From assembly GCA_025517425.1 (NCBI GenBank), contig JAOPJY010000002.1, positions 372,001-436,000 on the forward strand: 64,000 bases of DNA. Reading direction: 5' to 3'. The DNA comes from Halobacteria archaeon AArc-dxtr1 (GTDB lineage: Archaea > Halobacteriota > Halobacteria > Halobacteriales > Natrialbaceae). The first letter of the stretch is position 1; each line of letters opens with the position of its first letter. A program made the translations under genes and the position numbers. Of this stretch, positions 9,212-35,332 are shown piece by piece. Below the pieces are notes generated by a model. It was not told the DNA's origin. It did not search any database and was given only the letters and a program-made list of their open reading frames with translations.

Positions 9212-10306
9212 ATGCGAATTCTTCGTGTTGCACAGAAGGTCTATCCCGATATCAAGGGGGGTGGGCCGTACCACGTCCACGCGATGAGCCGCGATCAGGC
9301 CGCGATGGGCCACGACGTGACCGTGCTGACGGTGCGCCACGACCAGTCGCTGCCCGCAATCGAGGAGCGAGCCGGCTATACAGTCGTGCGGTACGATCCC
9401 GTTGCGAAGCCTCTCGGCAACGAGCTCAGCCCCGGCCTGGCACAGTATCTGCGGCGTATCGGCGACGTCGACGTCGTCCACGCTCACTCGCATCTGTACT
9501 TCGCGACGAATCTGGCCGCGCTGAAGCGGCGATTGGGGACGATCCCGCTCGCGATCACGAACCACGGGCTCTACTCCCAGAACGCTCCCGAGTGGGTGTT
9601 CGATCTCTATCTGCGGACAGTCGGCCGGTGGACGTTCAACCAGGCCGACGTCGTCTTCTGTTACACTGACGAGGACCGCGAGCGCGTCCGGGAGTTCGGC
9701 GTCTCGAGCCCGATCGAGGTGGTGGCCAACGGGATCGACACCGAGCGCTTCTCGCCGGCCGGCCCGACGAGTGAGCGGGTGACGGGTGAGAGACCGGTCG
9801 TGGTGTTTGTCGGGCGGCTGGTCGAGGGGAAGCGGCCGTCGGTCGCAGTTGAGGCGTTTGCGTCGGTTGTCGAGGACCATCCAACTGCCCAGTTGTACTT
9901 CTGTGGCGAGGGGCCGCTTCGTGGGGAGTTAGAAGAGCGCGCTCGCGAGCTGGGCGTCCGGGAGGCAGTGACTTTTCTCGGGCAGATTCCGTACGAGGAG
10001 ATGCCCGCCGTCTACCGCAGCGCGGATGCGTTCGTCCTCTCGAGTCGCGCCGAGGGGGTCCCGCGGACGATCATGGAGGCGCTGTCGACCGGCGTCCCCG
10101 TCGTGAGTTCGGCGCTCCCACAGGTCCGGTCGGCGTTTGGCGACGCGGTGGCCTACGCGCCGATCGGCGACGTCGACGCGTTTGCGGACCGGATCCGTGA
10201 AGCGGTCTCTGGTGGGGAGGGTGGCGAGCTGGGCGCCGCGTTCCGCTGGGAGCGAACAGTGGCGGAGACGACGGCGGCGTTGGAAGCTATCGCGGAGAGT
10301 CGGTGA
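9212..10306 (+). CDS. Glycosyltransferase family 4 (GT-B) protein
   Basis: 364 residues, starting MRILRVAQKVYPDIKGGGPY, a typical GT4 N-terminal Rossmann start with the GG loop. DVVHAHSHLYFAT is the usual acceptor-domain motif. VVANGIDTERFSP leads to the second domain, which starts with VVFVGRLVEGKRP (about residue 200). EGVPRTIMEALSTGVPVVSS (about 280) is the donor-binding E-x7-E region. It should transfer a sugar from an NDP-sugar to the lipid-linked glycan on the cytoplasmic side. Two broken relatives occur at 24345-24473 and 30625-30950, almost identical over stretches, so this gene is the intact parent or sister copy. Confidence 0.9.
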   Translation: MRILRVAQKVYPDIKGGGPYHVHAMSRDQAAMGHDVTVLTVRHDQSLPAIEERAGYTVVRYDPVAKPLGNELSPGLAQYLRRIGDVDVVHAHSHLYFATNLAALKRRLGTIPLAITNHGLYSQNAPEWVFDLYLRTVGRWTFNQADVVFCYTDEDRERVREFGVSSPIEVVANGIDTERFSPAGPTSERVTGERPVVVFVGRLVEGKRPSVAVEAFASVVEDHPTAQLYFCGEGPLRGELEERARELGVREAVTFLGQIPYEEMPAVYRSADAFVLSSRAEGVPRTIMEALSTGVPVVSSALPQVRSAFGDAVAYAPIGDVDAFADRIREAVSGGEGGELGAAFRWERTVAETTAALEAIAESR

Positions 10307-18100: not shown

Positions 18101-21100
18101 GGCGACCCGGTGACTGGACTCGAGGGGAGCGATTTCGACGTCGAGAGAGGGAGCGCCGAGTTCGACGCCGAATCAGCAGAACTTGAGGGAGAGCCCGGGG
18201 TCTACGAGTTTACACTCATCAACGAGAAGAGCGAGACGAGTGAGGTGGCGGTGACGGTCGATGGACAGGAACTGGAGTCACAGGCAGTAATTGACTTCGA
18301 AGAACCTGCGTTCTTCGAGGTCGACATCGGAGAGACGAACGCACCGGTCTTGGAAGGTGAGTCACTCGAGGTAACGGCAACCGTGACCAACACCGGCGAT
18401 CAGAAAGACACGCAAACGGTGAACCTGACGACGGATTCGGCATCGACCGAGCTAGACGAGACGAATGTGACACTCGAGGGTGGTGAGCACAACGACTCAG
18501 TCACGCTCACGTGGAATACCGAAGACGGTGATGCCGGGGCGTACGACGTCATCGCCTCGAGTGTGAACGATACCGACACCACATCGGTGACCGTCGAAAC
18601 ACCACCAGAAGCCGATCTAACGGCGCTCGATATCGCAGGCCACGGAGATGAGGCGACGATCCTCGAAGGGGACGCGGAGAACGTAACCACCACGGTCGAA
18701 AATAGTGGAGAGCGGGAAGGATCGTTTGAGCTGTCACTCGAGACCGGTGATGGCGTCGTCAAGGCCACCGAAGAAACCCAGACGCTTGAGGGAGGTGCTG
18801 AAGAGACCGTCAAGTTCGAGAACGTGACCGATGGGCTGGATCCAGATGAGTACGTGGTTGTAGTTTCGACAGACGCTCAGTCGCTCTCCGGTAACCTGTC
18901 CGTCGAAGCGCCTGCAAATCCCGTTCTCTCGTCCCTCGACATTGCTGGTGATGGTTCGGAGGCCGCGATTACGCAGAGAGACGACGTAGACGTCGGTGTG
19001 AGCGTCACGAACGTCGGCGACCGAGACGGTGTGTTCGACGTCGACCTCGAGATCGGAGACGAAGTGACTGCAATCGAAGACGGAGTGTCAGTTGATGCGG
19101 GAGAGACCGTCCCTCTCGCCTTCGAGGAGGTGACTGGCGATCTCGGCGGCGGTACGTACGCGGTAACCGTCTCGAGTGACGATGTCGAAGTACACGGTGA
19201 CCTGATGGTCGAGACACCAGCGCAAGCTGACCTGACGGATCTCGACATCGCTGAGGAGGGTGCAGAGGCGACAACGCTTGAGGGTGACGAGGAACCAATT
19301 ACCACGACTGTCGAAAATGTCGGTGACAGAGAGGGGTCGTTCGAGGTCGCTCTCGAGATTGGTGACGACGTTGTCGAAGAAACGATGGAAACCGGAACGG
19401 TCGCCGGGGGTGGCGAGGAAACAGTTCGCTTCGAGAACGTGACCGATGATCTCGGGGCCGGCGAGTATGAGATCACCGTGGAGGCAGAAGGTGGGACGCT
19501 CACTGGAACGTTGCAGGTAGAAGCGCCGGGAGTCTTTGAGATGGCCATCGAGGAGACAACCACGCCGGTCGTCGAAGGCGATCCACTCGAAGTGAGCGCG
19601 AACGTGAGTAATACGGGTGACGTCGAGACTACCCAGACTGTGAATCTTACCACGGATTCGACGTCGACCGAGCTGGACGAGACAGACGTCACACTCGCAG
19701 GTGGAGAGAGCAACGACTCGGTTATCCTCACCTGGGAGACCGAACACGGTGATGGTGGTGAGCATGCCGCTACGGTTTCAAGTGCGAACGACACTGATAC
19801 GGTTCCGGTAGTTGTCGAGAGACCGGCGTCCTTTAGCATGAGTGAGCTCGAGCCCGGTGACGTGGTAGCCGAGACGGGCGACTCCATCGACGTTTCGGCA
19901 ACCGTAACCAACACTGGTGACGTGAGTGATGACCAGCAAATCGACCTCCGAATCGACGGTGAGAATGTTGCAAGCGAGTCCGTAGCACTTGACGGCAGTG
20001 AAGCGACAACAGTCGAGTTCACGGACGTCTCGACGGACGAGTTAGATCCAGGGGCGCACGAATACGGCGTTTTCATCGAGGGAGAGAGCGCAACCGGGAC
20101 GCTGACGCTCGAGGAACCCGCGTTCTTCGAGATGTCCATTGAGGAGACGAACGCCCCAGTTGTGGAAGGTGACTCACTCGAGGTGAGTGCGAGCGTGACC
20201 AATACGGGTGACGTAACAGCGACTCAGACCGTGAACCTCACAACGGATTCGACGTCGACCGAACTGGACGGGACAGACGTCACGCTCGAGGGTGGCGAAA
20301 GTGACGAGTCGGTCACCCTGGCCTGGGAAACCGAGGAAGGTGATGCCGATGGGTACGACGTTATCGCCTCGAGTGCGAACGACACCGATACAGCGTCGAT
20401 CACGATCGAGACACCACCGGAGGCCGAGGTGACTGAGCTCGACATCGCCGAAGATGGGGCGGAGGCGACGATTCTCGAGGGCGACGATGAGACCGTTACC
20501 ACGACGGTCGAAAACATCGGTGACAGAGAAGGGTCGTTCGACGTCACCCTCGAGATAGAACACGTCGAAGAGTCGGTGTCGACGTCCGAAACCGAAGACG
20601 TCTCGGTTGATGCTGGTGAGACGGCTTCTCTTAGCTTCGAGAGCGTAACCAGCGACCTCGAGGCCGGAACGTACACGGTGACCGTCTCGACCGACGACGA
20701 CGGGATCAGTGGTGATCTTACCGTCGAGAAGTCGCCCGAGTTTACGATGATCTACGTCGACCCAGCGTATGGAATGCTCGAGCCCGGCGAGGAAGAGCAC
20801 GTGCTCGTCACCGTCGCAAACGAAGGTGACAGCGCGGGTGACGCAGCCGTCGTGCTCGACTTCGAGGGCGAAGAGTCGACCGAAACGCTCGAACTCGACG
20901 CTGGAAGCGCAGCGGACGTCGAGTTCTCGCCAATCGCGCCCGAGGAAGAAGGTGAGTACGAGTACACGATTAGCGTCGGTGACGAAGAGACAACCGAGAC
21001 GATGGTCGTCGAACCAATAGAACCACTGAACCCAGAGTGGAATATTGACGACTTCGCGTTCTCACCGGACGCCGTCGAACCCGGAGCGGACGTCGACGTG

Positions 21101-21550
21101 GCCGCCATCGTCGAGAACACTGGCGGGGACGGAGTACATGATGATGATATTCGTGTTCATGCGAGTTTCTACATCGGAGACGAGGAAGAAGAGGTAGAGG
21201 CGCTGGATGTAGACGGCGGCGACTCCGAAACCGCAGAAGCAACCCTCACCGCACCCGAAGAAGATGGCGAATACGAGATCGGTGTTTCGCTCTCTACCGA
21301 CCAGGGGATCCACGACGAGCAAGCGGACGAACTCGTGGTTGGAGATTCTGGTGCGGACGAGACAGACGATGGGGACGAGAGTGACGACGAAATGCCCGGG
21401 TTTGGATTGCTCACGGCACTCCTTGCGCTTGCCTTCCTCGGAGTTGGCCTCAGTCGTCGTCGTTACCGAGCTACGAACTGCGTACGGAATACAGAGCACG
21501 AATGTGACGCAGACGGTGAACTGATCTGCGAAGGCGTGATCGGTCAGTAG
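12185..21550 (+). CDS. Giant secreted surface protein: GLUG, beta-helix, CARDB repeats, PGF-CTERM anchor
   Basis: 3121 residues. A signal peptide spans about residues 12-37 (RMPRWVLICVVSLGGVLLVA and on to GVAAE). Residues about 60-430 hold GLUG-type repeats (GGLVG, GGVIG). A CARDB-like domain follows, then a right-handed beta-helix of NosD type at about 555-890 (repeated NNTV, SGNEV and DNEIDG turns). Five about 102-residue repeats (IEQGEPLEV-like) fill about 1018-1530. A second GLUG block lies at about 1536-1880. About ten CARDB-like units of about 100 residues (VTATVTNTGD-like) fill 2039-3050. A low-complexity acidic linker and MPGFGLLTALLALAFLGVGL (from 3070), then SRRR, form a PGF-CTERM signal, normally cleaved and lipid-linked by archaeosortase ArtA. 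A 27-residue cysteine-containing tail after RRR is unusual. The role is probably adhesion or cell-surface architecture. Confidence 0.9.
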   Translation: MNQPDRFSSGRMPRWVLICVVSLGGVLLVAMGGVAAETEPADCSGVGFEQDTDEYYEVENLSQLQCIEEHGLEKDYVLVNDIDASETEEWNEDDGFEPIGDGDVSEFVEGDAFNGTFDGNDRTIADLTIDRGGEDFVGLFEVIGSEGTVSNLTLESVTVTGDDDVGSLSGQNYGTVSDVSMSTDVTGSGTTGGVIGWNDGGTITGATVEGAVFSEQDGVNTHVGGIVGDHQRGASIDSSSFTNGTVDGEDEKIGGIAGQLTSTFDDTSSITNSSAHGTIGNEDADSVGGLVGEGRGDFFDSYSTATVRGNDTVGGVIGNAHNSDIERTYAVGEVDGDGDAVGGLVGVGASGIGSDFNIENSYWDIETTGVNESFDSEEDGLTTSEGGLTTDEMTGVNATEHMNGFGFPDGDGHWHAVEDDYPVLSYEDTDPVYGVEITGTNSAIDEGETLEVDATVTNVGSDGGEQSIELLDFDDGEVDTEEVTLESGESTALTLEWETAEDEGGLDDVTVASENDTDTRAVSVGEGEVIPQCQTIDTSGAYDLTDDIEASGECLGIEADDVSIDGNDHTISGSGTGMVVDKQSNVTITNVTLSGLDVGIEMTDIENATVEHNTVEESHENGLVFDDVQDSTIANNTVTEGATSGIHLADVTGTAVKNNTLRENDESGMYVVDSEELVVSGNEVVDNGDDEKEPSDDVEDAGIYFSGTSDSYLEANNLTANAQAALFLEEASTDNDLVKNSINSSPIGDGKHWNAVRIDDSSGNTISDSVISTGEVDRHSDRPEYFIYVDSAETVVKDNEIDGHARAGIDIRGESNTVDNNTIAGSFFRSDAQNGHAIRVFGGDDDSLVTNNSLTNAEILHPERAGIAIIEDQAVEIQNNTGTQSGPDLKLTNEEQSVENQQITTPAGDTTVTFTGAELRLDGVDESPADHDTLESTGYYFEVDNTSDEFTFENFELDYNETRLTTGDTIDPETLSLWRLDSGEWEEIDDSSVDTDEEVVTGNVTEDGTIGVFGEEPVLTDLAVDDVTIEQGEPLEVDLEDAEDSIGDPYDDESEVMFESDIFDADLLDEPLMKNVTFEDGGASDVELLDANKTADLSAASPEVYIEGQDAADSFHLTVEAVLAEFDVADDVGIDQGEPLAVDLENATDKAGDPYIDTVDLTGDEIDGQELSAEEVEFDEGEATGVELLEAETTEEISAEAYENVTLEAAETDATAQFDATLEIVLGDFTVEDEEIEQGESLTMTVSDAVDLAGDDFYGEEQIKISTGDLEGNDTDVEKIVDFAGTDEVELELFEADETAALGAQETSIDLEWADDTDVGATSEVDLTAVLNEFAVEPTNETIEQGDALTLEITDAEDVAGDTFTGTVDLTVDEIGGEDATTTDVGFTDGSATGVELFDGETPTLAADSYDDLEVTAQEADSEFDVTVAPVLTTLDVEDATITRGDPLSVTITGAFDLAGDPFEEERETTVGMDALEGIDDETETVVFDGEDTVELTEILDAETTLDIDADTYTLDMAAESAAEEFELSVEDLFADGDGSADDPYIIEDWEHLDNARFALDANVTLANDLDADTPGYSEVASEDANDGNGFEPIGNFENAFEGLFDGDGATISDLYINRTEESGTEESDLVGLFGQTDGTAIIEDVRLENATVRGTSNVGGLVGAADGTIANVSVAVDVEGDAGAEPGGPFEIGGLVGTNSGQVENATVEGSVTVEGGSEVGGLAGYSGELGGGIGDITDSHATVTVDAEDSTNVGGLLGNAGPGGTVSTSSATGTVAGEENVGGLVGMSQSDIERSFATGEVSGTQNVGGLLGSNNNGIVRNATASSPVDGDENVGGLVGENSGDLSHAFATGNVDGDTDVGGLVGFKDDGSVEDSYWDLTATTQDGSASGEPLTTDEMQGASANYTMDALEFGHAFVALESAYPELVSNRETATAPAGIDTADSSVEATSPHEPDGEDAATVTVWVTDTAGDPVTGLEGSDFDVERGSAEFDAESAELEGEPGVYEFTLINEKSETSEVAVTVDGQELESQAVIDFEEPAFFEVDIGETNAPVLEGESLEVTATVTNTGDQKDTQTVNLTTDSASTELDETNVTLEGGEHNDSVTLTWNTEDGDAGAYDVIASSVNDTDTTSVTVETPPEADLTALDIAGHGDEATILEGDAENVTTTVENSGEREGSFELSLETGDGVVKATEETQTLEGGAEETVKFENVTDGLDPDEYVVVVSTDAQSLSGNLSVEAPANPVLSSLDIAGDGSEAAITQRDDVDVGVSVTNVGDRDGVFDVDLEIGDEVTAIEDGVSVDAGETVPLAFEEVTGDLGGGTYAVTVSSDDVEVHGDLMVETPAQADLTDLDIAEEGAEATTLEGDEEPITTTVENVGDREGSFEVALEIGDDVVEETMETGTVAGGGEETVRFENVTDDLGAGEYEITVEAEGGTLTGTLQVEAPGVFEMAIEETTTPVVEGDPLEVSANVSNTGDVETTQTVNLTTDSTSTELDETDVTLAGGESNDSVILTWETEHGDGGEHAATVSSANDTDTVPVVVERPASFSMSELEPGDVVAETGDSIDVSATVTNTGDVSDDQQIDLRIDGENVASESVALDGSEATTVEFTDVSTDELDPGAHEYGVFIEGESATGTLTLEEPAFFEMSIEETNAPVVEGDSLEVSASVTNTGDVTATQTVNLTTDSTSTELDGTDVTLEGGESDESVTLAWETEEGDADGYDVIASSANDTDTASITIETPPEAEVTELDIAEDGAEATILEGDDETVTTTVENIGDREGSFDVTLEIEHVEESVSTSETEDVSVDAGETASLSFESVTSDLEAGTYTVTVSTDDDGISGDLTVEKSPEFTMIYVDPAYGMLEPGEEEHVLVTVANEGDSAGDAAVVLDFEGEESTETLELDAGSAADVEFSPIAPEEEGEYEYTISVGDEETTETMVVEPIEPLNPEWNIDDFAFSPDAVEPGADVDVAAIVENTGGDGVHDDDIRVHASFYIGDEEEEVEALDVDGGDSETAEATLTAPEEDGEYEIGVSLSTDQGIHDEQADELVVGDSGADETDDGDESDDEMPGFGLLTALLALAFLGVGLSRRRYRATNCVRNTEHECDADGELICEGVIGQ

Positions 21551-24344: not shown

Positions 24345-24473
24345 GTCGGTACGCTAGCAGCGGCTCGACTGCGTGAAGCGCTCTCCGGTGGCGAGCTGGG
24401 CGCCGCGTTCCGCTGGGAGCGGACGGTGGCGGAGACGACGGCGGCGTTAGAAGCCATCGCGGAGCGGCGGTGA
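24345..24473 (+). pseudogene. 3' fragment of a GT4 glycosyltransferase gene
   Basis: The translation LREALSGGELGAAFRWERTV then AETTAALEAIAERR is almost identical to the C-terminus of the GT4 protein encoded at 9212-10306 (REAVSGGEGGELGAAFRWER and so on), and the DNA is nearly identical. Nothing upstream of about 24345 matches the rest of that gene. It is a decapitated copy that marks an old duplication or recombination border at the left of the Orc1/Cdc6 module. Confidence 0.85.
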
Positions 24474-24612
24474 CGCCTGTGAGCCGGTGGAGTGGTAGCT
24501 AGTGAGGGGCCGACGACACGTACGAGCGGCAAGACCGACCGACGAGTTGCATCCATCTGGCCGGCTAGTCTCGCCCGAGCCATGCACCCGTCCGGCCCCC
24601 AAGGGTTATCAC

Positions 24613-24640
24613 GACCTCTGTAAATACCCACACAGAGGTC
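24613..24640. promoter_or_regulatory. Inverted repeat before the orc1/cdc6 gene
   Basis: GACCTCTGT, ten bases, ACAGAGGTC is a perfect 9-bp inverted repeat 27 bases before the ATG at 24667. It could be an autoregulatory operator or an origin-linked initiator site. The sequence does not match the chromosomal ORB consensus I remember. Confidence 0.4.
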
Positions 24641-24666
24641 CGCTCGCACGCGCGACCCCGACGCCC

Positions 24667-25878
24667 ATGGACCGCTACGACGAACTGTTCGACGAGACCG
24701 CCCCCGAGGGCGGGATCTTCCGCGAGAAGGGGGCACTCGACCCGCTGGCCGCGCCGACGGAGGTCATCGCCCGCGAGGCCCAAGAGCGCGAGCTGGCGAC
24801 GGTTCTGAATGGCGTCGAGGAAGGGTATCTCCCGCCGACGGTCTCGGTCTACGGCCCGCCCGGCACCGGAAAGACGCTCACAACCCGGCGACTCTGCGAG
24901 GCGTTTGCCGCCCGCCACGACGCGGTGGCCGTCGAGTACGTCAATCTCAAAGAGTGTCGGAGCATCTTCAGTGCCGCCAACGAGATCTGTCTCGAGGTCA
25001 GCGGAGCGAAGGTGGGCTCCTATGCCGGGTTGGATGGCGCCTTCGAGGCGATCTGGGAGGCCCTCGAGAGCTATCCCGAGTGGACGATCCTCATCCTGGA
25101 TGAGATCGACCAGATCCGCCAGGATACGAACTACGAGCCAAGCGAGTTTCTCTATCGGCTACTGCGCGGCGAGGGGAAGCTCAAACGCGAGATTGCGCTG
25201 TCGGCGTGGCTGGTGAGCAACGAGCTGTTGGAGGTCAAGCTCCGGGTGGATAGCCGCGTCGAAAGTGCGATGAGCGATGAGGACGTCTTCTTCTCGCCGT
25301 ACGGCGTCGACGAGCTTACGGCAATCTGCGAACCGCGCGTCGAGCGGGCGTTTCACGAGGGGGTCGTCCCCGCGGCCGTCTTCGAGACGGGCGTCCGCGA
25401 GGCCGCCCGCCGGTGGGGCGATGCCCGCAAGGCGTTGCAGCTGTTCCGTCAGGCCGGCGAGACTGCCCGCGAGCGCGGCCTCGAGCAGGTGACGCAGGCG
25501 TGTCTTGAGGAGAACGTCGAGGCGACCGAACGCGAGGCGACGATCGAGAAACTGCTCGCGTTGCCGGAGAATCACTTTTTCGTGTTGACGGCGATCACCG
25601 GCCAAAATCGCGACGGCGAGATCAAACAGCCCGTGACGACAGCCGAGGTCCGCGAGCTGCTGCAAGCCGACGTCTATCCGACCGAGCTAAGCGGGCGGGC
25701 GATCCGGACGGTCGTCTCCGATCTCGAAACGATGGGGCTGCTCGAGACGTGGATCGAGTCCCGAGGCCGCGACGGCCGGGTCAAACAGCTGCAGACGACG
25801 TGCGACCCCCAGTGGGTGCGGGCGGCGATCGAGCTACACGCCGAGCGCACAGCCGCCGACGAGGACGCAGATATATAA
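24667..25878 (+). CDS. Orc1/Cdc6-family replication initiator
   Basis: 403 residues from the ATG at 24667 (MDRYDELFDETAPEGGIFRE). The longer frame to 24502 adds a proline/arginine-rich stretch across the inverted repeat and is unlikely. An AAA+ domain carries Walker A VYGPPGTGKT (about 60-69), Walker B ILILDEIDQI (about 140-149), and sensor/arginine parts (LSAWLVSNELLEVKLRVDSR). A C-terminal winged helix starts near 300 (FFVLTAITGQNRDGEIKQPV, VTTAEVRELL). It binds origin repeats and loads the MCM helicase. Divergent Orc proteins like this are frequent on haloarchaeal plasmids and integrated elements. Neighbours downstream are small plasmid-type genes, so it likely served or still serves a mobile replicon. 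Confidence 0.92.
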   Translation: MDRYDELFDETAPEGGIFREKGALDPLAAPTEVIAREAQERELATVLNGVEEGYLPPTVSVYGPPGTGKTLTTRRLCEAFAARHDAVAVEYVNLKECRSIFSAANEICLEVSGAKVGSYAGLDGAFEAIWEALESYPEWTILILDEIDQIRQDTNYEPSEFLYRLLRGEGKLKREIALSAWLVSNELLEVKLRVDSRVESAMSDEDVFFSPYGVDELTAICEPRVERAFHEGVVPAAVFETGVREAARRWGDARKALQLFRQAGETARERGLEQVTQACLEENVEATEREATIEKLLALPENHFFVLTAITGQNRDGEIKQPVTTAEVRELLQADVYPTELSGRAIRTVVSDLETMGLLETWIESRGRDGRVKQLQTTCDPQWVRAAIELHAERTAADEDADI

Positions 25879-26019
25879 TTCCCTCGGCCCCAGACCGACC
25901 CATGTATATACCTTGTGTAACCGGAAATTTATGTGGCCAGAGTACGAACGGAGGGATAGCAGGGCGAGATGGACCGGGACCCGTGGTGTACCGGGTTGGC
26001 GGCCACTCCCTGTATACGT

Positions 26020-26283
26020 ATGTCGCTATCGACTACCGCATCCGACCGAACCGATCGCGAGGAGGTGCTTGCCCTCCTCGGCGAGACCATCCAGACAACC
26101 CACAGCCGGATCCAGCAGTTCGAGGTGGATGCTGATGCGGACGAAGAGCTGGTGATCAAGTGGATCCGCGCACAGGGTTATCTCGCCGGCCAGTATCGGA
26201 AACTGCTCAAAGACGAAGATCTCGACGAGATGGCCGACGAGCTCGAGATGCTCAAAGTCGCCGAGAAAACCAAGAAGGCGTGA
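26020..26283 (+). CDS. Small helical protein of the replicon module, unknown function
   Basis: 87 residues from the ATG at 26020 (MSLSTTASDRTDREEVLALL). The frame extends upstream to 25969, but that part overlaps promoter-like AT-rich DNA. The protein is highly acidic and helical (GETIQTTHSRIQQFEVDADA, then EELVIKWIRAQGYLAGQYRK), without a recognised domain. It ends 3 bases before the next gene, so the two form an operon downstream of orc1/cdc6. The conserved-looking linkage to a replication initiator suggests a plasmid maintenance or partition accessory role (inference). Confidence 0.65.
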   Translation: MSLSTTASDRTDREEVLALLGETIQTTHSRIQQFEVDADADEELVIKWIRAQGYLAGQYRKLLKDEDLDEMADELEMLKVAEKTKKA

Positions 26284-26286
26284 CCG

Positions 26287-27000
26287 ATGAGTAAACGCTC
26301 CACCAAACGCGAGATCGACAAGCTCACCGCCGAGCGCCTCGAAGCGCTCGAGCCACTGGAACGGGTCCAGATCGCCTTACGCGCACACACCCGTGGTCGC
26401 CCGGGGTGGCTCGATCGGTTAGCCGAGAGCCGACCGGCCGAGCAATCCGAGCAGGTGTTTCGTTACGGAGTGGCCGCATTGGAGCTGTGCCACTATGTCG
26501 CATACGACCTACAGACGCTGGCGCTGGAGTATGAACGCGAGCACAGGCAGTGGGCGGTCATCCTAAGTCAGATCGACGACCCGTCCGACGAGGTGATCGC
26601 ATTAGCGGTCGAGGCACGGACCGCTGCGACGCAGAGCTTTGCGGTGTTGGCTGCCCAGGCGCGGGCCGCCGACCGCTTTGCCGAGGAGGTACTCGGGACC
26701 GATCTCGAGACGTGGTTCGTCCTCCACCCCCACCAGGAACGACTCGTCGAGACCGTTGGGCAGACGCTCGACAACGAAGGCGAGCGGGCAATAGCCGACC
26801 GTAAGCTGGCCGAAGGAACACTGTTCGCGGCTGAAGCGGATTCGGGGGGTGAAGATGAGGCGGCTGTCGACGGCGACGCCGAGGCGCTTACGCTGGAGGA
26901 ACTCGCCGACAGCGAGTACGAGCGACTCGTCGCGATGTGGGACCAGCTCACGGACGTCGAAGACGCGGAGAGCGCTTCAACGGCTAGATGGGAGCGTTAG
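26287..27000 (+). CDS. Hypothetical helical protein of the replicon module
   Basis: 237 residues, starting 3 bases after the preceding gene. The sequence is almost entirely helical and acidic, with blocks ERVQIALRAHTRGRPGWLDR, FRYGVAALELCHYVAYDLQT and EVLGTDLETWFVLHPHQERL. The C-terminal 50 residues are a low-complexity acidic linker followed by a short helix (ELADSEYERLVAMWDQLTDV). No domain is recognised. The translation keeps normal haloarchaeal codon bias. Position after orc1/cdc6 and the small gene suggests a shared mobile-element function. Confidence 0.7.
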   Translation: MSKRSTKREIDKLTAERLEALEPLERVQIALRAHTRGRPGWLDRLAESRPAEQSEQVFRYGVAALELCHYVAYDLQTLALEYEREHRQWAVILSQIDDPSDEVIALAVEARTAATQSFAVLAAQARAADRFAEEVLGTDLETWFVLHPHQERLVETVGQTLDNEGERAIADRKLAEGTLFAAEADSGGEDEAAVDGDAEALTLEELADSEYERLVAMWDQLTDVEDAESASTARWER

Positions 27001-27031
27001 ATGAGAGACCGACTGTGACGAGTGAGACCGA

Positions 27032-27271
27032 TCACTGCTCTCGTGGGTCTTCGACGAACTCGTAGAGACCCCCTTTGTTTAGTCTGCGAATCCATCCTGC
27101 TGCGGTGAGATTCCGAAGGGCGTACTCTACTTGGCCTTTTTCGAGATTGGTCTCCTCGCGAAAGAACTGAGGATTTGCACGCCCCCATGGCTCATCGTTC
27201 TCTCTACCTTGCTTAATTAACTCGAGAACGATCCTCTCACGATCGTTTGGTTCGTAGTTCCGGTTTACCAT
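27032..27271 (-). CDS. Small winged-helix (MarR-like) regulator
   Basis: 79 residues from the ATG at 27269-27271 (MVNRNYEPNDRERIVLELIK). The upstream extension to 27310 is unlikely. Nearly the whole protein is one winged helix: RERIVLELIKQGRENDEPWG, FREETNLEKGQVEYALRNLT as recognition helix, and AGWIRRLNKGGLYEFVEDPR as wing. Such single-domain regulators are common in haloarchaeal plasmids and viruses. It points toward the orc operon tail and away from the zinc-finger operon, so it may control the latter divergently. Confidence 0.75.
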   Translation of the reverse strand: MVNRNYEPNDRERIVLELIKQGRENDEPWGRANPQFFREETNLEKGQVEYALRNLTAAGWIRRLNKGGLYEFVEDPREQ

Positions 27272-27393
27272 TGGGCTTAATCTCTGTTGGCAAGGCATAA
27301 TTCTCATCATTGGACAGGCAATTCACTAGGCAGTTTGCTTAGCAAAACATTAAGTGAATGAGGGGCAATAGCTCACCTGGGAAGTGCGTGTGT

Positions 27394-27452
27394 CACAGAA
27401 TTCTGTGGCCCGGTGTTCCAGCACCGGACCGTACTTCTCGAGGTGTGAGAAG
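27394..27452 (+). promoter_or_regulatory. Three adjacent hairpins before the zinc-finger operon
   Basis: In 59 bases there are CACAGAA/TTCTGTG (27394-27407, no loop), CCGGTG-TTCCAG-CACCGG (27410-27427) and CTTCTC-GAGGTGT-GAGAAG (27434-27452), the last ending 2 bases before the ATG at 27455. The third could hide or present the start region of the first gene. The second has a TTC-type loop a little like a tRNA T-arm, but a full tRNA cannot be folded. Confidence 0.45.
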
Positions 27453-27454
27453 CA

Positions 27455-27601
27455 ATGTCTGCTACGAAGTCAACCGGTAAAAAGGATAGTGGAGAGGAAC
27501 CGTGCGACTACGACTGGTGTGACGGCCCGAGGAGCAGTTCACTCCCCTGTTTCGACTGCTTCGAATGGTTTCGAAGCGGCGAAGAGGAGGATGCGAGATG
27601 A
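27455..27601 (+). CDS. 48-residue four-cysteine microprotein
   Basis: The frame MSATKSTGKKDSGEEPCDYD, WCDGPRSSSLPCFDCFEWFR, SGEEEDAR ends in a TGA that overlaps the ATG of the next gene (ATGA at 27598-27601). Cys17, Cys22, Cys32 and Cys35 are spaced C-x4-C...C-x2-C, enough for a small zinc knuckle. The ATGA coupling to a second cysteine-rich gene, and that gene's own ATGA coupling to a third, make this a believable gene. Function unknown. Confidence 0.65.
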   Translation: MSATKSTGKKDSGEEPCDYDWCDGPRSSSLPCFDCFEWFRSGEEEDAR

Positions 27602-27981
27602 GCGACGCTGGTTGCATACACGCAGAACGGGCACCCTCTCAGTTGTGCTCGACGCCAGAGCAGTTGTTGTTCGGACTCGTCGTCGGCTTGCCGACGAACC
27701 GCGTCGTCTGTACCGGCTGTAACGACGAACTGGGAGAGGGGGAACCCGTGACCGTTTACGGCTATCGCCCAGCCGAGTGTACGCGGTGGGATCTTCGCCG
27801 GTGTTACTGTCCAGACTGTGCGCCGGCATCGGTTCGGAGTCCGACGTTGGGTGTGGCAGAGTTGGTAGTCCGAGCGTGGCTCGGAACCATTGCGCTCCCG
27901 CGGACGCGCACCCACCGGCTGTGTCTGACCGAGATCACGATGGTGGCGTATAGCCCGTCCGAGGAGGGTACAAAGCCATGA
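27598..27981 (+). CDS. Cysteine-rich zinc-binding protein of a mobile module
   Basis: 127 residues from ATG 27598, overlapping the stop of the upstream microprotein. VVCTGCNDELGEGEPVTVYG and RRCYCPDCAPASVRS supply a CxxC...CxxC zinc ribbon; an additional CIH and a C-terminal RTHRLCL may contribute. Overlap with the next gene is again ATGA (27978-27981). This type of protein occurs in haloarchaeal proviruses and plasmids (general recollection). It is probably a DNA- or protein-binding accessory factor. Confidence 0.75.
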   Translation: MSDAGCIHAERAPSQLCSTPEQLLFGLVVGLPTNRVVCTGCNDELGEGEPVTVYGYRPAECTRWDLRRCYCPDCAPASVRSPTLGVAELVVRAWLGTIALPRTRTHRLCLTEITMVAYSPSEEGTKP

Positions 27982-28598
27982 CCGACGGCACGGAGTCGTG
28001 CGCAGATCGCGTGGTAGCGCTCGAGACGACCGTCACCGAACTAGAGGCACAACTCGAGACGGCGACTAATCGGGATATCCCACTGCTGAAGGGGACCATT
28101 CGGGCGCTGGTCGGCGCCGAAATCGACGAGATCGGCGAACTGCCCGAATCCGGGCGGACGTTCAACCGCCAGGTAGAGACCCACGCCGAGCGCCTCGATG
28201 CCGTCGAAAAGCGGTTGGCGGCGCTGGGCGAGATCGATCGCGAGAAGACGACGAAAGAACAGAAGATCGCGGCCATCTGTACGTTCGCACAGAACAAACG
28301 CGGTGGGCGATCGTCGACGGTGGCCGTGACTGCCAAAGAGATTCAGGGCTGTGTCGGGGTTTCGCGACGGTATGCGTACGATCTGATCGGAGAGGTGGCC
28401 GAGGTGGTCGAGGGGGCGCGGGTGCGGGACGCTCGAGAGGTGCCGACGGCGACCGGCGTCGAACACAAAAAGAAGGCGTTGTTGATCGACTGTGAAGCGG
28501 TTCACGTCGAGAACGGTGGTGTGAACCAGTTCACCACAAGAAGTAGGGCTACTGGGGAAGCGTACGGAGGGACTGAGGAGGCAAACGTAACCGAGTAA
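27978..28598 (+). CDS. Coiled-coil plus winged-helix DNA-binding protein
   Basis: 206 residues, third gene of the ATGA-coupled operon. Residues about 10-40 form a coiled coil (ALETTVTELEAQLETATNRD). A linker follows, and residues about 85-165 form a DNA-binding winged helix (EQKIAAICTFAQNKRGGRSS, VTAKEIQGCVGVSRRYAYDL, IGEVAEVVEGARVRD). The tail is low complexity. Similar helical-wHTH proteins occur in haloarchaeal plasmids and viruses, where they may act in replication or regulation. A precise role cannot be given. Confidence 0.72.
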   Translation: MTDGTESCADRVVALETTVTELEAQLETATNRDIPLLKGTIRALVGAEIDEIGELPESGRTFNRQVETHAERLDAVEKRLAALGEIDREKTTKEQKIAAICTFAQNKRGGRSSTVAVTAKEIQGCVGVSRRYAYDLIGEVAEVVEGARVRDAREVPTATGVEHKKKALLIDCEAVHVENGGVNQFTTRSRATGEAYGGTEEANVTE

Positions 28599-28961
28599 GC
28601 AAGACGGAGCTTTCATTCAAGGATACGGCGGTGAACGCATTCGGCGGCTAGCTGTGGATGCGCTCGGTACGGCGCTCGACGGCGCTAGATGGGCTGTGTA
28701 GGCTGGGTGGTCAGCGGGAGAGAATGGTGTGGTGAACGAGTTCACAGGTTGTGCGGTACGGCCCTGAATCTCGCGGGTCTGGAGCGTGTTCGGTTTCTTT
28801 TCGCGCTTAATGGGGTACTCGAGAGACTCGCAGTCTAGTAGGGCAACTGTTTCGAGTTTTTATTCCGTCGCTTTCGGGTGTGAGAGTTCTGCGACATGTA
28901 AGTTAGGACTGCACGTTAGTCCATGGAAATGATTACGTTCCGTGACTGTATCGGCGTCTGT
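28599..28961. other. Intergenic stretch, no supported gene
   Basis: About 360 bases. A TTTTTATT run near 28856-28863 may be a promoter or terminator element. No coding or RNA signal is seen. Confidence 0.4.
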
Positions 28962-29882
28962 ATGAACGCTGAGCGGATCAAGCGTGGGCTCAAAACACCC
29001 TCGCTGTTCGGTAGGGAGGTAAACAGAAAGGTCCATACTCGTTTCGGCCAACGGCTTTACAACACCGACGGGGTCGATGTTTTCAGCGAAGACTGGGACA
29101 ACCTGGTCGTCCTCGATGCCTGTCGCCTCGATATGTTCGACGACCAGGTGTCTCCCCACATCGACGGCAGTCTCGAGACGCGCACTTCACGTGGATCGAG
29201 CACGGTCGAGTGGCTTGAGTCGAACGTATTCAACCGCGACCTGTCCGACACAGTATACATCACTGCAAACCCGCAGTACTACCGAAACGCGACCGATTGC
29301 GATGAGTTTCATGCCGTGATTGAGGTGTGGGATTCCGAAAGGTGGGATGACGATAGGCATACAGTTCCACCTGATGCGATGACTGACGCCATTCTGGAGG
29401 GCGCTACGGAATACCCACACAAACGTCTCCTATGTCACTATATCCAACCCCACTTCCCGTTCCTTGGCCCGACAACCCGCGATCACCCTGAACTCAACAA
29501 TATACAGAATCTCGCCATCTGGAGAGATGTATTCAGTGGCGATATCAACGTCTCCGATGATGTCCTCCGTCAAGCGTTCCGCGAGACACTCGATGTGGCT
29601 GTCCCTGCGATTGTCCGTGCTGTTGATTCCCTTGAGGGAAAAACCGTATTGACAGCCGATCACGGTCAGATGATCGGAGAGCGATCAGCCCCAGTCCCAA
29701 TCCGCGAGTATGGCCATCCCCGACAAACGTATACAGATAAACTCGTGACGGTGCCCTGGTTCATCTGTGAAACCGAAGCAAGACGAGAGATACACTCCGA
29801 CAATTCCGAGAACGTAACTGGAATTGATAGTAAAACCGCCACCAACGTTGAAGAACGACTTGCTGACCTCGGATACGTGTGA
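28962..29882 (+). CDS. Alkaline phosphatase/sulfatase superfamily protein of a glycan locus
   Basis: 306 residues from the ATG at 28962 (MNAERIKRGLKTPSLFGREV), chosen over 28923 because it matches the family start I recall. DWDNLVVLDACRLDMFDDQV gives the first metal-ligand aspartate and the C in the position of the catalytic T/S/C. HYIQPHFPFLGP and LTADHGQMIGER give later metal-binding His/Asp residues, followed by REYGHPRQTYTDKLVTVPWF. It likely hydrolyses or transfers phosphate or sulfate esters on glycans. It has no signal peptide, suggesting cytoplasmic action. It lies between the mobile module and the decayed minus-strand genes. Confidence 0.82.
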   Translation: MNAERIKRGLKTPSLFGREVNRKVHTRFGQRLYNTDGVDVFSEDWDNLVVLDACRLDMFDDQVSPHIDGSLETRTSRGSSTVEWLESNVFNRDLSDTVYITANPQYYRNATDCDEFHAVIEVWDSERWDDDRHTVPPDAMTDAILEGATEYPHKRLLCHYIQPHFPFLGPTTRDHPELNNIQNLAIWRDVFSGDINVSDDVLRQAFRETLDVAVPAIVRAVDSLEGKTVLTADHGQMIGERSAPVPIREYGHPRQTYTDKLVTVPWFICETEARREIHSDNSENVTGIDSKTATNVEERLADLGYV

Positions 29883-29891
29883 GAAATATAG

Positions 29892-30155
29892 TTATTTTCG
29901 GTGTGAGGTTACCGAGTCATTATTCTTTCGCTCACGGCGTTCGATTTGTTCACAAGCCATGTCGGCCAACAGTTGTTGATTGTAGGCCGACGGTTGCGAA
30001 CCATCCAAATTCTTATATTCGATTTCTTTCACCCCCTCCGGATACCCCGATGAGGGGGTAGTTTTCCACCACTCGGTATTTTCGGCTACCTTATTGTCGT
30101 TGTGGTCCCATACGCCAAGTCCGCCATCGTCATTGATGTCCCCGTTCCATGTCAT
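29892..30155 (-). CDS. Hypothetical protein, second gene of a decaying minus-strand unit
   Basis: 87 residues from ATG 30153-30155 (MTWNGDINDDGGLGVWDHND). The start overlaps by ATGA the TGA of the upstream, broken gene, which supports real translation in the past. The protein is hydrophilic, ending ACEQIERRERKNNDSVTSHR. AT content is higher than in neighbours. No domain is recognised. The style (short, tryptophan-rich, coupled genes) resembles structural genes of haloviruses, but that is only an impression. Confidence 0.5.
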   Translation of the reverse strand: MTWNGDINDDGGLGVWDHNDNKVAENTEWWKTTPSSGYPEGVKEIEYKNLDGSQPSAYNQQLLADMACEQIERRERKNNDSVTSHRK

Positions 30156-30600
30156 TGTTCTTCCCTCTGATAACTCACGATGAAACATGCCCTATCTTCA
30201 ACGACGCCGATGGTCCCGGTAGACCACATCTGTAACTTATCAAAGAAAAACCACGACGCATCTAGATTGAGTTCAATCCAGCCCGTATCTCAGGTGTGAC
30301 TTGAAAACATACTAGTCCCCGTCGTGAAGTCGTCGCGGATCGATTCAATAACCTCGAAATCATCATCTCTAACCAATGGCCTTATCTCGTAATCGTCTCC
30401 TCCGTCCCCTCCGGATGTCTCCACATCTGCGATTAGACGCCCGTAAAAGGTGATATCGTCAGTGTCTGGAATAGTGACTATTATCGGAATAAAGCGCCCT
30501 GCCTTTGCCAGTTATCATCTGACACATCGTTTACCTCCCCCACGCCAACTGACTGGTAGACAATTCGGTGACTGTCATTGATCAGTAGACGCTCTGTACT
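30152..30600 (-). pseudogene. Broken gene upstream of the 87-residue protein, unknown family
   Basis: Reading the minus strand gives RIVYQSVGVGEVNDVSDDNW in one frame. After a shift it continues GRFIPIIVTIPDTDDITFYG and EIRPLVRDDDFEVIESIRDD, then TSMFSSHT and an in-frame TGA near 30299. The same frame continues DTGWIELNLDASWFFFDKLQ to VEDRACFIVSYQREEQ and a stop at 30152-30154. One frameshift and one nonsense codon (CGA to TGA would explain it) therefore interrupt an otherwise coherent protein. The upstream end is unclear. Confidence 0.55.
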
Positions 30601-30624
30601 TACCGAAGTAGTTTATCTCGAGAT

Positions 30625-30950
30625 ATCCACGCGATGAGCCGCGATCAGGCCGCGATGGGCCACGACGTGACCGTGCTGACAGTGCGCCACGACCAGTTGC
30701 TGCCCGCGATCGAGGCGCGAGCCGGTTATAGGGTGGTGCGACCCCGTTGCGAAGCCCCCCGGAAACGATCTCAGCTCCGACCTGACACAGTATCTGCGAC
30801 GGATCGATGACGTTGACGCATTTGTGCCCGACTGCACACGATTCAGTGTCCGAGAGTGGAACCGTCCAGCTGAGAAGGGCGTTCAGTTGGGAGGAGAAAG
30901 TGATGGAGACGACAGCGGCGTTAGGCGAGATCGCGGTCCGAGCGAGGATC
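30625..30950 (+). pseudogene. Internally deleted copy of the GT4 gene
   Basis: IHAMSRDQAAMGHDVTVLTV and RHDQLLPAIEARAGY match residues about 22-58 of the intact GT4 protein at 9212 nearly base for base. A frameshift follows (GTGCGACCCC lacking the TAC codon context). Then comes DNA for the SSDLTQYLRRIDDV part, and after a deletion the C-terminal part RRAFSWEEKVMETTAALGEI. Most of both Rossmann domains is gone. It mirrors the 3' fragment at 24345 across the Orc1/Cdc6 module, in the same orientation. Confidence 0.82.
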
Positions 30951-31138: not shown

Positions 31139-31510
31139 ATGAGTCAGGATTCCGGTCTGGATCGTGCCTTGCGAAACTCCCGCCTGTACGGGCGTCTCAG
31201 CGACGCCAGCGAGGAGTCCGGGACGGAATCCGAGACCGACCCGTCGACCGTGCGATCGTTGCTCACCAGCTCGCGGCTCTACGCGTGGTTCTCGGCGGCG
31301 TGGCAGTTCGGTGCCTCGAGCACTGTTGCCGGCTTCCTCAATGACAAACGTGTGTTGCTAGCGAGTACACTCGTGTTCGTCCTGATTAGTCTCGTGCGCA
31401 TTCTCACGTCGGGGCTACACGTGACCGTCCGCTTCCTGAGTTTCGCGTTGCTGGCGGTCGCGTTGCTCGTACTCGTCTGGCCATACACCAAGCCGTTGGC
31501 GTACGACTAG
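31139..31510 (+). CDS. Small two-helix membrane protein of the glycan island
   Basis: 123 residues. The N-terminal half is polar (LRNSRLYGRLSDASEESGTE, LLTSSRLYAWFSAAWQFG). Two close hydrophobic helices follow at about 72-90 and 95-115, and it ends WPYTKPLAYD. A truncated copy lies at 34025-34210. Its last 95 bases are antisense to the 3' end of the polymerase-like remnant, and the whole overlap is repeated exactly 2700 bases to the right. The function is unknown; the SRLY blocks recall the membrane protein at 4467-5291. Confidence 0.65.
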   Translation: MSQDSGLDRALRNSRLYGRLSDASEESGTESETDPSTVRSLLTSSRLYAWFSAAWQFGASSTVAGFLNDKRVLLASTLVFVLISLVRILTSGLHVTVRFLSFALLAVALLVLVWPYTKPLAYD

Positions 31511-31795
31511 CTCCCAGCGCTGGAGCACCGGGGCGGCGAAGACGAGCAAGAGGAGGACGAACGGGATTCTGTGGCGGACATTCGTCCCGAAGTTCGAGTT
31601 GATGAGTCCGTAGCCGGTAATGCCCGCGAGGTAGACGACGAGTAGTGTAACCAAGGCGACCTCGTCGGTCTCGCAGGCGGAGAGGCTCGAGACGAACGCG
31701 AGGAGGTGAAGGGCGGACTCGACGGGCAAGGGAAACGTGGCATACGTTCTGGAGAGGGACACGTTCGGGGGAGTGATGAGAAGGCGGTCGTAGAG
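31415..31795 (-). pseudogene. 3' fragment of a polymerase-like membrane protein gene
   Basis: The translation ends LAGITGYGLINSNFGTNVRH, RIPFVLLLLVFAAPVLQRWE and WPDEYEQRDRQQRETQEADG, identical to the C-terminus of the protein encoded at 34115-35332. The upstream part is shortened (HLLAFVSSLSACETDEVALV versus a longer segment in the intact copy) and nothing before about FPLPVES matches. It is a truncated duplicate left of asnB. Confidence 0.8.
31416..31618 (+). repeat. 203-bp perfect direct repeat, left copy
   Basis: Identical base for base to 34116-34318, an offset of exactly 2700. It spans the 3' end of the small membrane protein on the plus strand and the 3' end of the polymerase-like gene on the minus strand. 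Sequence beyond it diverges on both sides. The perfect identity implies very recent duplication or conversion. Confidence 0.92.
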
Positions 31796-34024: not shown

Positions 34025-34210
34025 ATGATGCGGCTGTTGAACGACCAGCGCGTACTGTTGGCCAGCGTGGTGGTGTTTACGCTAGTGAGTCTCGGACGGG
34101 TGCTCTTTTCGGGATTACACGTGACCGTCCGCTTCCTGAGTTTCGCGTTGCTGGCGGTCGCGTTGCTCGTACTCGTCTGGCCATACACCAAGCCGTTGGC
34201 GTACGACTAG
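34025..34210 (+). pseudogene. 5'-truncated copy of the small two-helix membrane protein
   Basis: 61 residues: MMRLLNDQRVLLASVVVFTL, then VSLGRVLFSGLHVTVRFLSF, ending WPYTKPLAYD. It matches residues about 66-123 of the protein at 31139-31510; the polar N-terminal half is missing. It retains an ATG and could still make a two-helix peptide, but loss of half the protein favours a pseudogene. The last 95 bases are antisense to the polymerase-like gene. Confidence 0.65.
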
Positions 34211-35332
34211 CTCCCAGCGCTGGAGCACCGGGGCGGCGAAGACGAGCAAGAGGAGGACGAACGGGATTCTGTGGCGGACATTCGTCCCGAAGTTCGAGTT
34301 GATGAGTCCGTAGCCGGTGATTCCCGCAAGGAAGACGACAAGTAGTGTGACCAAGACGACCTCATCCGTCTCACACTCGTACAATGATCGGGCGGCTGCG
34401 ACGACGAAGACGATGATGTAGACGCTCGAGACGAACGCCAGCAGGTGGAAGGTAGTTTCGACGTGTAGCGGGAAGGGGGCAAACAGAAAGTAGATCGCGC
34501 GACCCGGTGCAGCGACGATGAAGTCGAGCCAGGATCTGTACTGCATGCCTTCGAGGTAGGCCGCACCACCACTCGTTCTGTACGAGAGTTCGGCGTTGAC
34601 GCGATCGAAGGAGTACATGTACTCGGCGAAGAGGGCGAAGGCGAGGGCGCCGAGAGCGCCGGCTGTGGCGATCAGCGAAGCGAAGCTCGCCTCAATGTCG
34701 AGAGCGTCGTAGAGGAGGAGTGTGACTCCGGCGAGCAAGCCAAGCAGAAGAACCATTCCCCACTCCGGTCGGAGGAGGTAGGTTGCGGCGAGAAAACAGA
34801 TGAGAGGTGCACCCATCCAGTAATCGCATTCAGTTAACACGTGGACGATGAGTGCGAGCGAATAGAAGACGGCGAACACCGTGAGAGCGTCTCGCATCGG
34901 GATCGTCAGAAAGAGAAATGGCAGGGGCAAGAAAAGAATGAGGGCTGTGAGTCCGTGGGTGCTTCGCAACTGGTCACCATACAGTTTGGCTGCGAGATAC
35001 ACTGCTGGAAGTGGGAGTAGTACTGCGAGAAGGCTGTTGACGACCGAGACAACCCTTGTGTCGACGCCGAACAACAGATACAGGAAGCCTTGGAACGTCC
35101 CAAATGCGGTAACCGTCACTGAGGCGTCCGGAAGCCCGCCATCTTGCAACGCGAGCGCGGCACCATGAAAATTACCAATATCCCATCTGTACGGAACAAC
35201 TGGAAGCACAAAATAGGTGACGAGGAGGTGACCACACAGTGCAAGGAGAGCCACATAGAAATAGAATCGACTTACGCGTAACAAACGCGCAAAAAAGAGG
35301 AAGAGGAGGAATACAACAACTACGCTAAGCAC
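34115..35332 (-). CDS. Multi-pass membrane protein, Wzy-like glycan polymerase candidate
   Basis: 405 residues from a GTG at 35330-35332; a TATA-like element (about 35356-35363) fits this start. I count ten to twelve hydrophobic segments. The features are LLVTYFVLPVVPYRWDIGNF near residue 40, a large loop LSYRTSGGAAYLEGMQYRSW around 245, and RHRIPFVLLLLVFAAPVLQR near the C-terminus with a charged tail. The topology, and an RHR.P motif before the last helix, resemble O-antigen polymerases and haloarchaeal membrane proteins of exopolysaccharide loci. I would expect polymerisation of lipid-linked repeat units outside the membrane. A GT-C transferase is the alternative. Confidence 0.7.
   Translation of the reverse strand: MLSVVVVFLLFLFFARLLRVSRFYFYVALLALCGHLLVTYFVLPVVPYRWDIGNFHGAALALQDGGLPDASVTVTAFGTFQGFLYLLFGVDTRVVSVVNSLLAVLLPLPAVYLAAKLYGDQLRSTHGLTALILFLPLPFLFLTIPMRDALTVFAVFYSLALIVHVLTECDYWMGAPLICFLAATYLLRPEWGMVLLLGLLAGVTLLLYDALDIEASFASLIATAGALGALAFALFAEYMYSFDRVNAELSYRTSGGAAYLEGMQYRSWLDFIVAAPGRAIYFLFAPFPLHVETTFHLLAFVSSVYIIVFVVAAARSLYECETDEVVLVTLLVVFLAGITGYGLINSNFGTNVRHRIPFVLLLLVFAAPVLQRWELVVRQRLGVWPDEYEQRDRQQRETQEADGHV
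34116..34318 (+). repeat. 203-bp perfect direct repeat, right copy
   Basis: Second copy of 31416-31618, offset exactly 2700 bases, spanning the overlapping 3' ends of the truncated small membrane protein and the intact polymerase-like gene. Confidence 0.92.

Follow-up and report, generated by a model that had tools for sequence, protein, structure and literature searches.

A 4.1-kb cassette built around an orc1/cdc6 gene recurs in the surface-glycan islands of several haloarchaeal families, at unrelated chromosomal or megaplasmid sites. On balance, it is best read as a virus-related, replicon-like resident of these islands, with the fragments of a GT4 glycosyltransferase gene that lie on both sides of it being independent debris. 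These fragments are the ordinary part of the locus and the cassette, as a regular resident of glycan islands, is the interesting one, for which we infer the mechanism discussed below.

The window, i.e. the whole 64,000-nucleotide stretch that was analysed (G000:C2:372001-436000), belongs to a Natrialbaceae genome of 2.8 Mb in five contigs, and the Orc block sits in an island that constitutes a recombining glycosylation region (Table 1). Several other features were observed there. Directly to the left of the studied region, positions 12185-21550 form a single open reading frame for a surface-protein-like product of 3121 aa with internal repeats, and a DUF4330 gene (2371-3942) contains three direct repeats of 300 bp each at a spacing of 636 bp. 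Positions 31340-31639 and 34040-34339, flanking asnB, are an 88% partial duplicate of a membrane protein gene and represent glycan-island debris. An AglB-type gene with an AglB_L1 domain is present at 51929-54328 and another AglB at C1:1086105; the main AglB locus is not at the cassette but elsewhere in the genome.

Table 1. Features of the cassette and of the GT4 gene and its fragments (positions are those of the window).
Feature	Position	Strand	Remarks
Intact GT4 glycosyltransferase gene	9212..10306	+	364 aa; Glycos_transf_1 E = 1e-33
GT4 gene 3' end (fragment), outside cassette	24387..24473	+	81/87 (93%) to 10220-10306
Motif A, diverged copy, ATACACACTCGTAGTTCCGCTGGAAC, cassette left end	24624..24649	+	19/26 matches; 17 bp before orc ATG
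orc1/cdc6	24667..25878	+	403 aa; Walker A GPPGTGKT and Walker B region LILDEID intact
c1, two-helix protein	26020..26283	+	87 aa; protein cluster in 18 loci
c4, all-helical protein	26287..27000	+	237 aa; homologues in 10 loci; occupies TerL place
Winged-helix protein	27032..27271	-	79 aa; longer form from start at 27310 possible
zn1, Cys-rich, Zn-binding-like	27455..27601	+	48 aa; ATGA overlap with next gene
zn2, Zn-binding-like	27598..27981	+	127 aa; cassette homologues 41-60% identical
ccHTH, coiled-coil HTH protein	27978..28598	+	206 aa
Palindrome 1, GTGAACCAGTTCAC	28521..28534		within ccHTH 3' end, encodes VNQFT
Palindrome 2, GTGAACGAGTTCAC, cassette right end	28732..28745		non-coding; 211 bp beyond palindrome 1
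GT4 copy with internal deletion, outside cassette	30626..30936	+	30626-30818 87%; 30879-30936 76%

The cassette (24,624-28,745) was delimited by DNA homology to relatives, which starts at 24622-24624 in three loci (L080, L056 and L053) and has its right limit among relatives at 28,691-28,747; that it is a discrete, conserved unit of Halobacteria is almost certain. An earlier sequence-only reading had described a block of 6 kb, which proved too wide, as the cassette does not extend to the alkaline-phosphatase-like gene at 28923-29882 or to the minus-strand region that follows. This gene stands in the interval that separates the cassette from the right GT4 fragment; its product gave a weak match to Metalloenzyme (alkaline phosphatase superfamily), and a homologue with 37% identity was found near another cassette (L075). 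The orc1/cdc6 gene, the ATGA-coupled small Zn-type genes and the winged-helix gene listed by that reading were all recovered.

Gene clustering and protein searches over the loci gave the order orc, c1, c4 or a 500-aa protein, the winged-helix gene on the minus strand, and zn2. A ccHTH gene also follows zn2 in Halorarius (L050, 73% protein identity), Halosegnis (L056, 63%) and Halorussus (L051, 54%), the Halosegnis locus being devoid of c1 and c4, and the full architecture including ccHTH was present in few loci. The orc1/cdc6 product belongs to the Orc1/Cdc6 family, with 213 bits to TIGR02928 (cut-off 181), Pfam Cdc6_lid above cut-off and Cdc6_C at 25.0 versus 25.1 bits; 2v1u and 2qby are solved relatives. 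The place and strand of the winged-helix gene were kept in many loci, with identities up to 84%, and zn2 homologues were also found on haloarchaeal megaplasmids. The AlphaFold model of c1 consists of two long helices (pLDDT 81), and small-terminase structures (9oox, 3txs) were among the best results of a fold search, with non-significant E-values and weak, generic two-helix matches; the predicted structure thus makes c1 a candidate small-terminase-like subunit. The model of c4 (pLDDT 84) had no fold match among PDB structures. No named family scored above cut-off for c1, c4, zn2 or ccHTH, and no sequence relatives of c1, zn2 or ccHTH were found in the phage collection. Capsid, portal and tail genes were absent among the cassette genes, and no partition ATPase was seen in the cassette.

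Conserved sites mark both ends. No other site on either strand of the window matches as well as the copy of motif A at the left end, and Halosegnis, Haladaptatus, Halococcus and others have kept the motif upstream of orc; it is possibly an Orc-binding (ORB-like) box or an operator or promoter. Motif A was also considered as an end repeat of the element; it is present in one copy per cassette in most loci and is therefore not one of a pair of ends. No repeats of at least 9 bp were shared between the two ends of the cassette. At the right, two palindromes with the consensus GTGAAC-N2-GTTCAC form a pair about 210 bp apart, which occupies the same place in five other loci (L050, L051, L056, L184 and L185, with mismatches in some) and in one viral contig (L183), and was not found in 359 kb of background. 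Part of the conservation of palindrome 1 is due to its overlap with the conserved VNQFT codons of ccHTH. The L075 locus has a cut epimerase gene, with residues 1-109 missing, about 20 bp or less from the left motif of the cassette; as the N-terminal part does not reappear beyond the other end of the cassette, this is not a clean insertion.

The cassette Orc forms a distinct family whose members are mostly 61-72% identical to it, ordinary plasmid Orcs being about 30% identical. It was found in 19 of the 125 Natrialbaceae genomes searched, including that of the window, as well as in other families, and was absent from the four other genomes of the window's genus. Natronococcus genomes had up to four matches each, made up of intact copies and truncated orc pieces. 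In the Orc tree, most Natrialbaceae grouped together while Natronococcus was split into several lines; the spread within the family may thus be partly vertical. Truncated orc pieces were located upstream of the intact orc in six loci (L047, L048, L049, L052, L054 and L081), often with small toxin-antitoxin-like pairs in between, as if cassettes had repeatedly been added at one spot. Beside one cassette (L076:2544-5065), genes for proteins that weakly resemble Csm3 and Cmr3 (PADLOC E ~1e-4) and for a third, unknown protein may represent an undescribed type III-like RAMP set, whose gene order is repeated in two Natronococcus loci (L049 and L058).

The 500-aa protein that stands in the c4 position in sister cassettes of other haloarchaea is a terminase large subunit (TerL), as indicated by Terminase_6N (E = 1e-12) and phrog_2 (E = 3e-32) matches and by the conservation of the P-loop region in the seven aligned copies. 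The virus-type packaging gene is thus present in sister cassettes and absent from the window copy, which has c4 instead, together with the weakly TerS-like c1. TerL C-terminal remnants follow c4 in two loci (L054 and L079), from which c4 appears to have taken the place of TerL. The cassette TerL is about 40% identical to the TerL of the tailed viruses HSTV-1, HRTV-28, HRTV-DL1 and BJ1. Among 125 genomes, its full-length close relatives all occurred in genomes and loci with the cassette Orc; truncated relatives were found in two genomes (G118 and G099), for neither of which the tally shows this Orc, and the more distant relatives, scoring below 380 bits, are probably TerL proteins of ordinary proviruses.

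A second connection to tailed viruses came from the palindrome pair. A scan of 2.9 million viral contigs gave one match, the tailed-virus contig IMGVR_UViG_3300022777_000107, with the pair situated where a ccHTH homologue (29% identity, E = 1e-21) ends and palindrome 1 beginning 31 bp before the ccHTH stop, much like in the other copies. Next come genes for a winged-helix and a Zn-type protein, and then TerS, TerL, portal and head genes; the TerL of this contig is not close to that of the cassette (E = 0.05). Two Haladaptatus megaplasmids possessed the winged-helix gene, ccHTH and the palindromes with a different Orc (26-27% identical), at loci adjoining rfbB and, in one of them, also aglF and GT genes. 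Overall, the ancestry of the cassette is likely to be virus-related. The earlier description as a plasmid- or virus-like Orc module was supported and made more specific by the patchy distribution, the multiple copies and the virus-related parts.

The association with glycan islands was quantified at the genome level. In 12 Natrialbaceae genomes, 11 of the 13 cassette copies, corresponding to 10 of the 12 genomes and seven of seven genera, were located within 25 kb of a Glycos_transf_1 gene, and such stretches make up 8.7% of these genomes (P = 1.2e-9; this and the following P value assume independent genomes and are too small because the genomes are related). In other families, glycan genes within 8 kb of the cassettes were patchy, and the linkage was consequently retested with genome-wide GT4 positions. 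The 25-kb cut-off was picked after the first set was seen, with this second set as a check; four of its five genomes with usable contigs had the cassette within 25 kb (P = 5e-4), the exception being Halalkalicoccus. Near-GT4 stretches represented 9-12% of the genome across these tests. The linkage is thus very unlikely to be a product of chance.

Such linkage would also arise if glycan islands were permissive hot spots gathering all sorts of mobile elements, the cassette being one of many. The island does contain other duplicated and broken genes, and other orcs were slightly enriched near GT4 genes (21 of 138 within 25 kb, 15% versus 9%). However, these orcs are far less linked than the cassette, and no tyrosine integrase (PF00589) was found within 100 kb of any cassette in the 12 genomes, which together indicate that the linkage is specific to the cassette and leave the hot spot an unlikely account. 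A possible, if somewhat unlikely, explanation is that the cassette is itself immobile and is carried within whole islands exchanged between cells by homologous recombination, being kept perhaps because its Orc and HTH proteins regulate nearby genes. The strong linkage to glycan genes, the lack of an integrase and the many copies in which TerL has been lost or replaced are in line with a passenger, but the neighbouring glycan genes are hardly common to the sites, the same architecture holds different Orc types, and both the virus-type parts and the conservation of the non-coding ends point to replicon functions. The sites are non-syntenic, the flanks of any two genomes sharing at most four genes at 50% identity.

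In the absence of an integrase nearby, no route is known by which the cassette would enter or leave a genome. Searches with Orc or TerL revealed no free form, either plasmid or virus, the phage collection contained no close relative of the Orc, and relatives had no free small circular form, the only plasmids with close Orc relatives being two megaplasmids of 0.9 and 1.6 Mb. The flanks of same-genus genomes were too different to reveal an empty site. The cassette has likely been mobilised over evolutionary time; present satellite-like mobility is doubtful, and the window copy, in which c4 replaces TerL and no integrase is available, amounts to no more than a partly equipped derivative. Contig C2 could instead be a separate replicon with the cassette as its working origin of replication, since among the matches listed its Orc is the only Cdc6_lid-positive one on C2 and two relatives reside on megaplasmids. 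This is very improbable, as C2 has tRNA genes (Met, Asn, Arg, Asp and Ser) and most relatives are on main chromosomes with other orcs elsewhere.

The GT4 fragments had been taken by the sequence-only reading as brackets left by a replicon that integrated by homologous recombination at the GT4 gene, or that invaded a tandem duplication of it. GT4 matches oriented as the intact gene do lie on both sides of orc1/cdc6 (E = 3e-32 and 2e-65, within the window), well beyond what chance would give, and are specific to the GT4 gene of the same genome, in which no further DNA derived from 9212-10306 was found. The left fragment, reported as 24345-24473, is GT4-like only from 24387, the preceding 42 positions (24345-24386) having 8/42 identities in register. 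Near identity to the intact gene holds for the first stretch of the right copy (64/65) but not for the following ones (27/30, 70/84 and 44/58), and this first stretch is unusually conserved across species, with 95% identity to the GT4 gene of another genome (G020) whose protein is only 58% identical.

Integration at the GT4 gene is nevertheless highly improbable, since the fragments miss the ends of the cassette, by 151 bp on the left (24473) and about 1.9 kb on the right (30626), and since the cassettes of relatives occupy unrelated sites that lack such fragments, the outcome that the earlier reading had itself named as speaking against it. Moreover, both fragments cover part of the C-terminal region and are 77.6% alike in this overlap, indicating duplicates of different age rather than halves of a single interrupted gene. 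In G021, a genome of the same genus without such an Orc, the glycan island likewise contains a GT4 copy with an internal deletion (L092:7487-7900), beside a second WbaP-type gene, showing that GT4 debris arises without an Orc block as well. An invaded tandem duplication, though conceivable, is a superfluous assumption, and the fragments are probably ordinary, independent debris of a recombining glycan island.

For the cassette itself, we propose descent from a replicon in which an Orc initiator came together with functions of a tailed virus. The site of action of Orc would be the motif directly before its own gene, c1 and TerL would form a packaging pair in the fuller cassettes, and ccHTH may bind the palindrome pair as an operator, partition or packaging site. 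If the cassette were replicated or packaged, for instance by a tailed virus acting as helper, it could take neighbouring glycan genes along; without replication or packaging, it would stay as an island resident.

Phage satellites of the PICI and cos types are small, encode a replication initiator and terminase genes without a full capsid set, and are patchily distributed. The cassette resembles them in size, in having an initiator gene, in the lack of a full capsid set and in its patchiness, and sister cassettes do so in their terminase gene, but it has an archaeal Orc initiator, lacks integrase and attachment sites, would depend on a hypothetical helper and particle, and in the window copy has c4 for TerL. 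Sister cassettes share TerL with haloarchaeal tailed viruses, and the cassette shares the ccHTH gene and palindrome pair with the single viral contig, but it possesses no head or tail genes and its Orc has no close phage-collection relative. As in the Orc-type megaplasmid replicons of haloarchaea, an Orc1/Cdc6 initiator is accompanied by conserved sites beside its gene, but the cassette Orc is distant from theirs, no partition ATPase was seen and the location is mostly chromosomal. An Orc1/Cdc6 homologue is reported to regulate the life cycle of virus SNJ2 (cited in PMC10544981).

No description of an Orc-terminase cassette was found in the literature searched. Alternative glycosylation clusters of Haloferax often contain orc1, and an origin from plasmid-like elements was suggested for them (PMC5867893, 2018). 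This remark anticipates part of the present finding, the likeness being an Orc1/Cdc6 gene within variable glycosylation gene clusters; the passages concerned name the orc gene only, and do not include the cassette architecture, the TerL variant, the palindromes, the virus link or cross-family statistics.

In haloarchaea, the islands for surface glycans differ strongly from strain to strain and are relevant to both virus sensitivity and mating. An Orc cassette with tailed-virus parts offers a concrete candidate carrier for these islands across families, with testable cis sites (motif A and the palindrome pair) and proteins (Orc, ccHTH, and c1 with TerL or c4). It is quite unlikely that Orc-terminase cassettes are archaeal satellite-like elements that replicate host glycan islands and package them in tailed-virus particles; if they were, viruses themselves would carry the genes that alter virus receptors and surface type.
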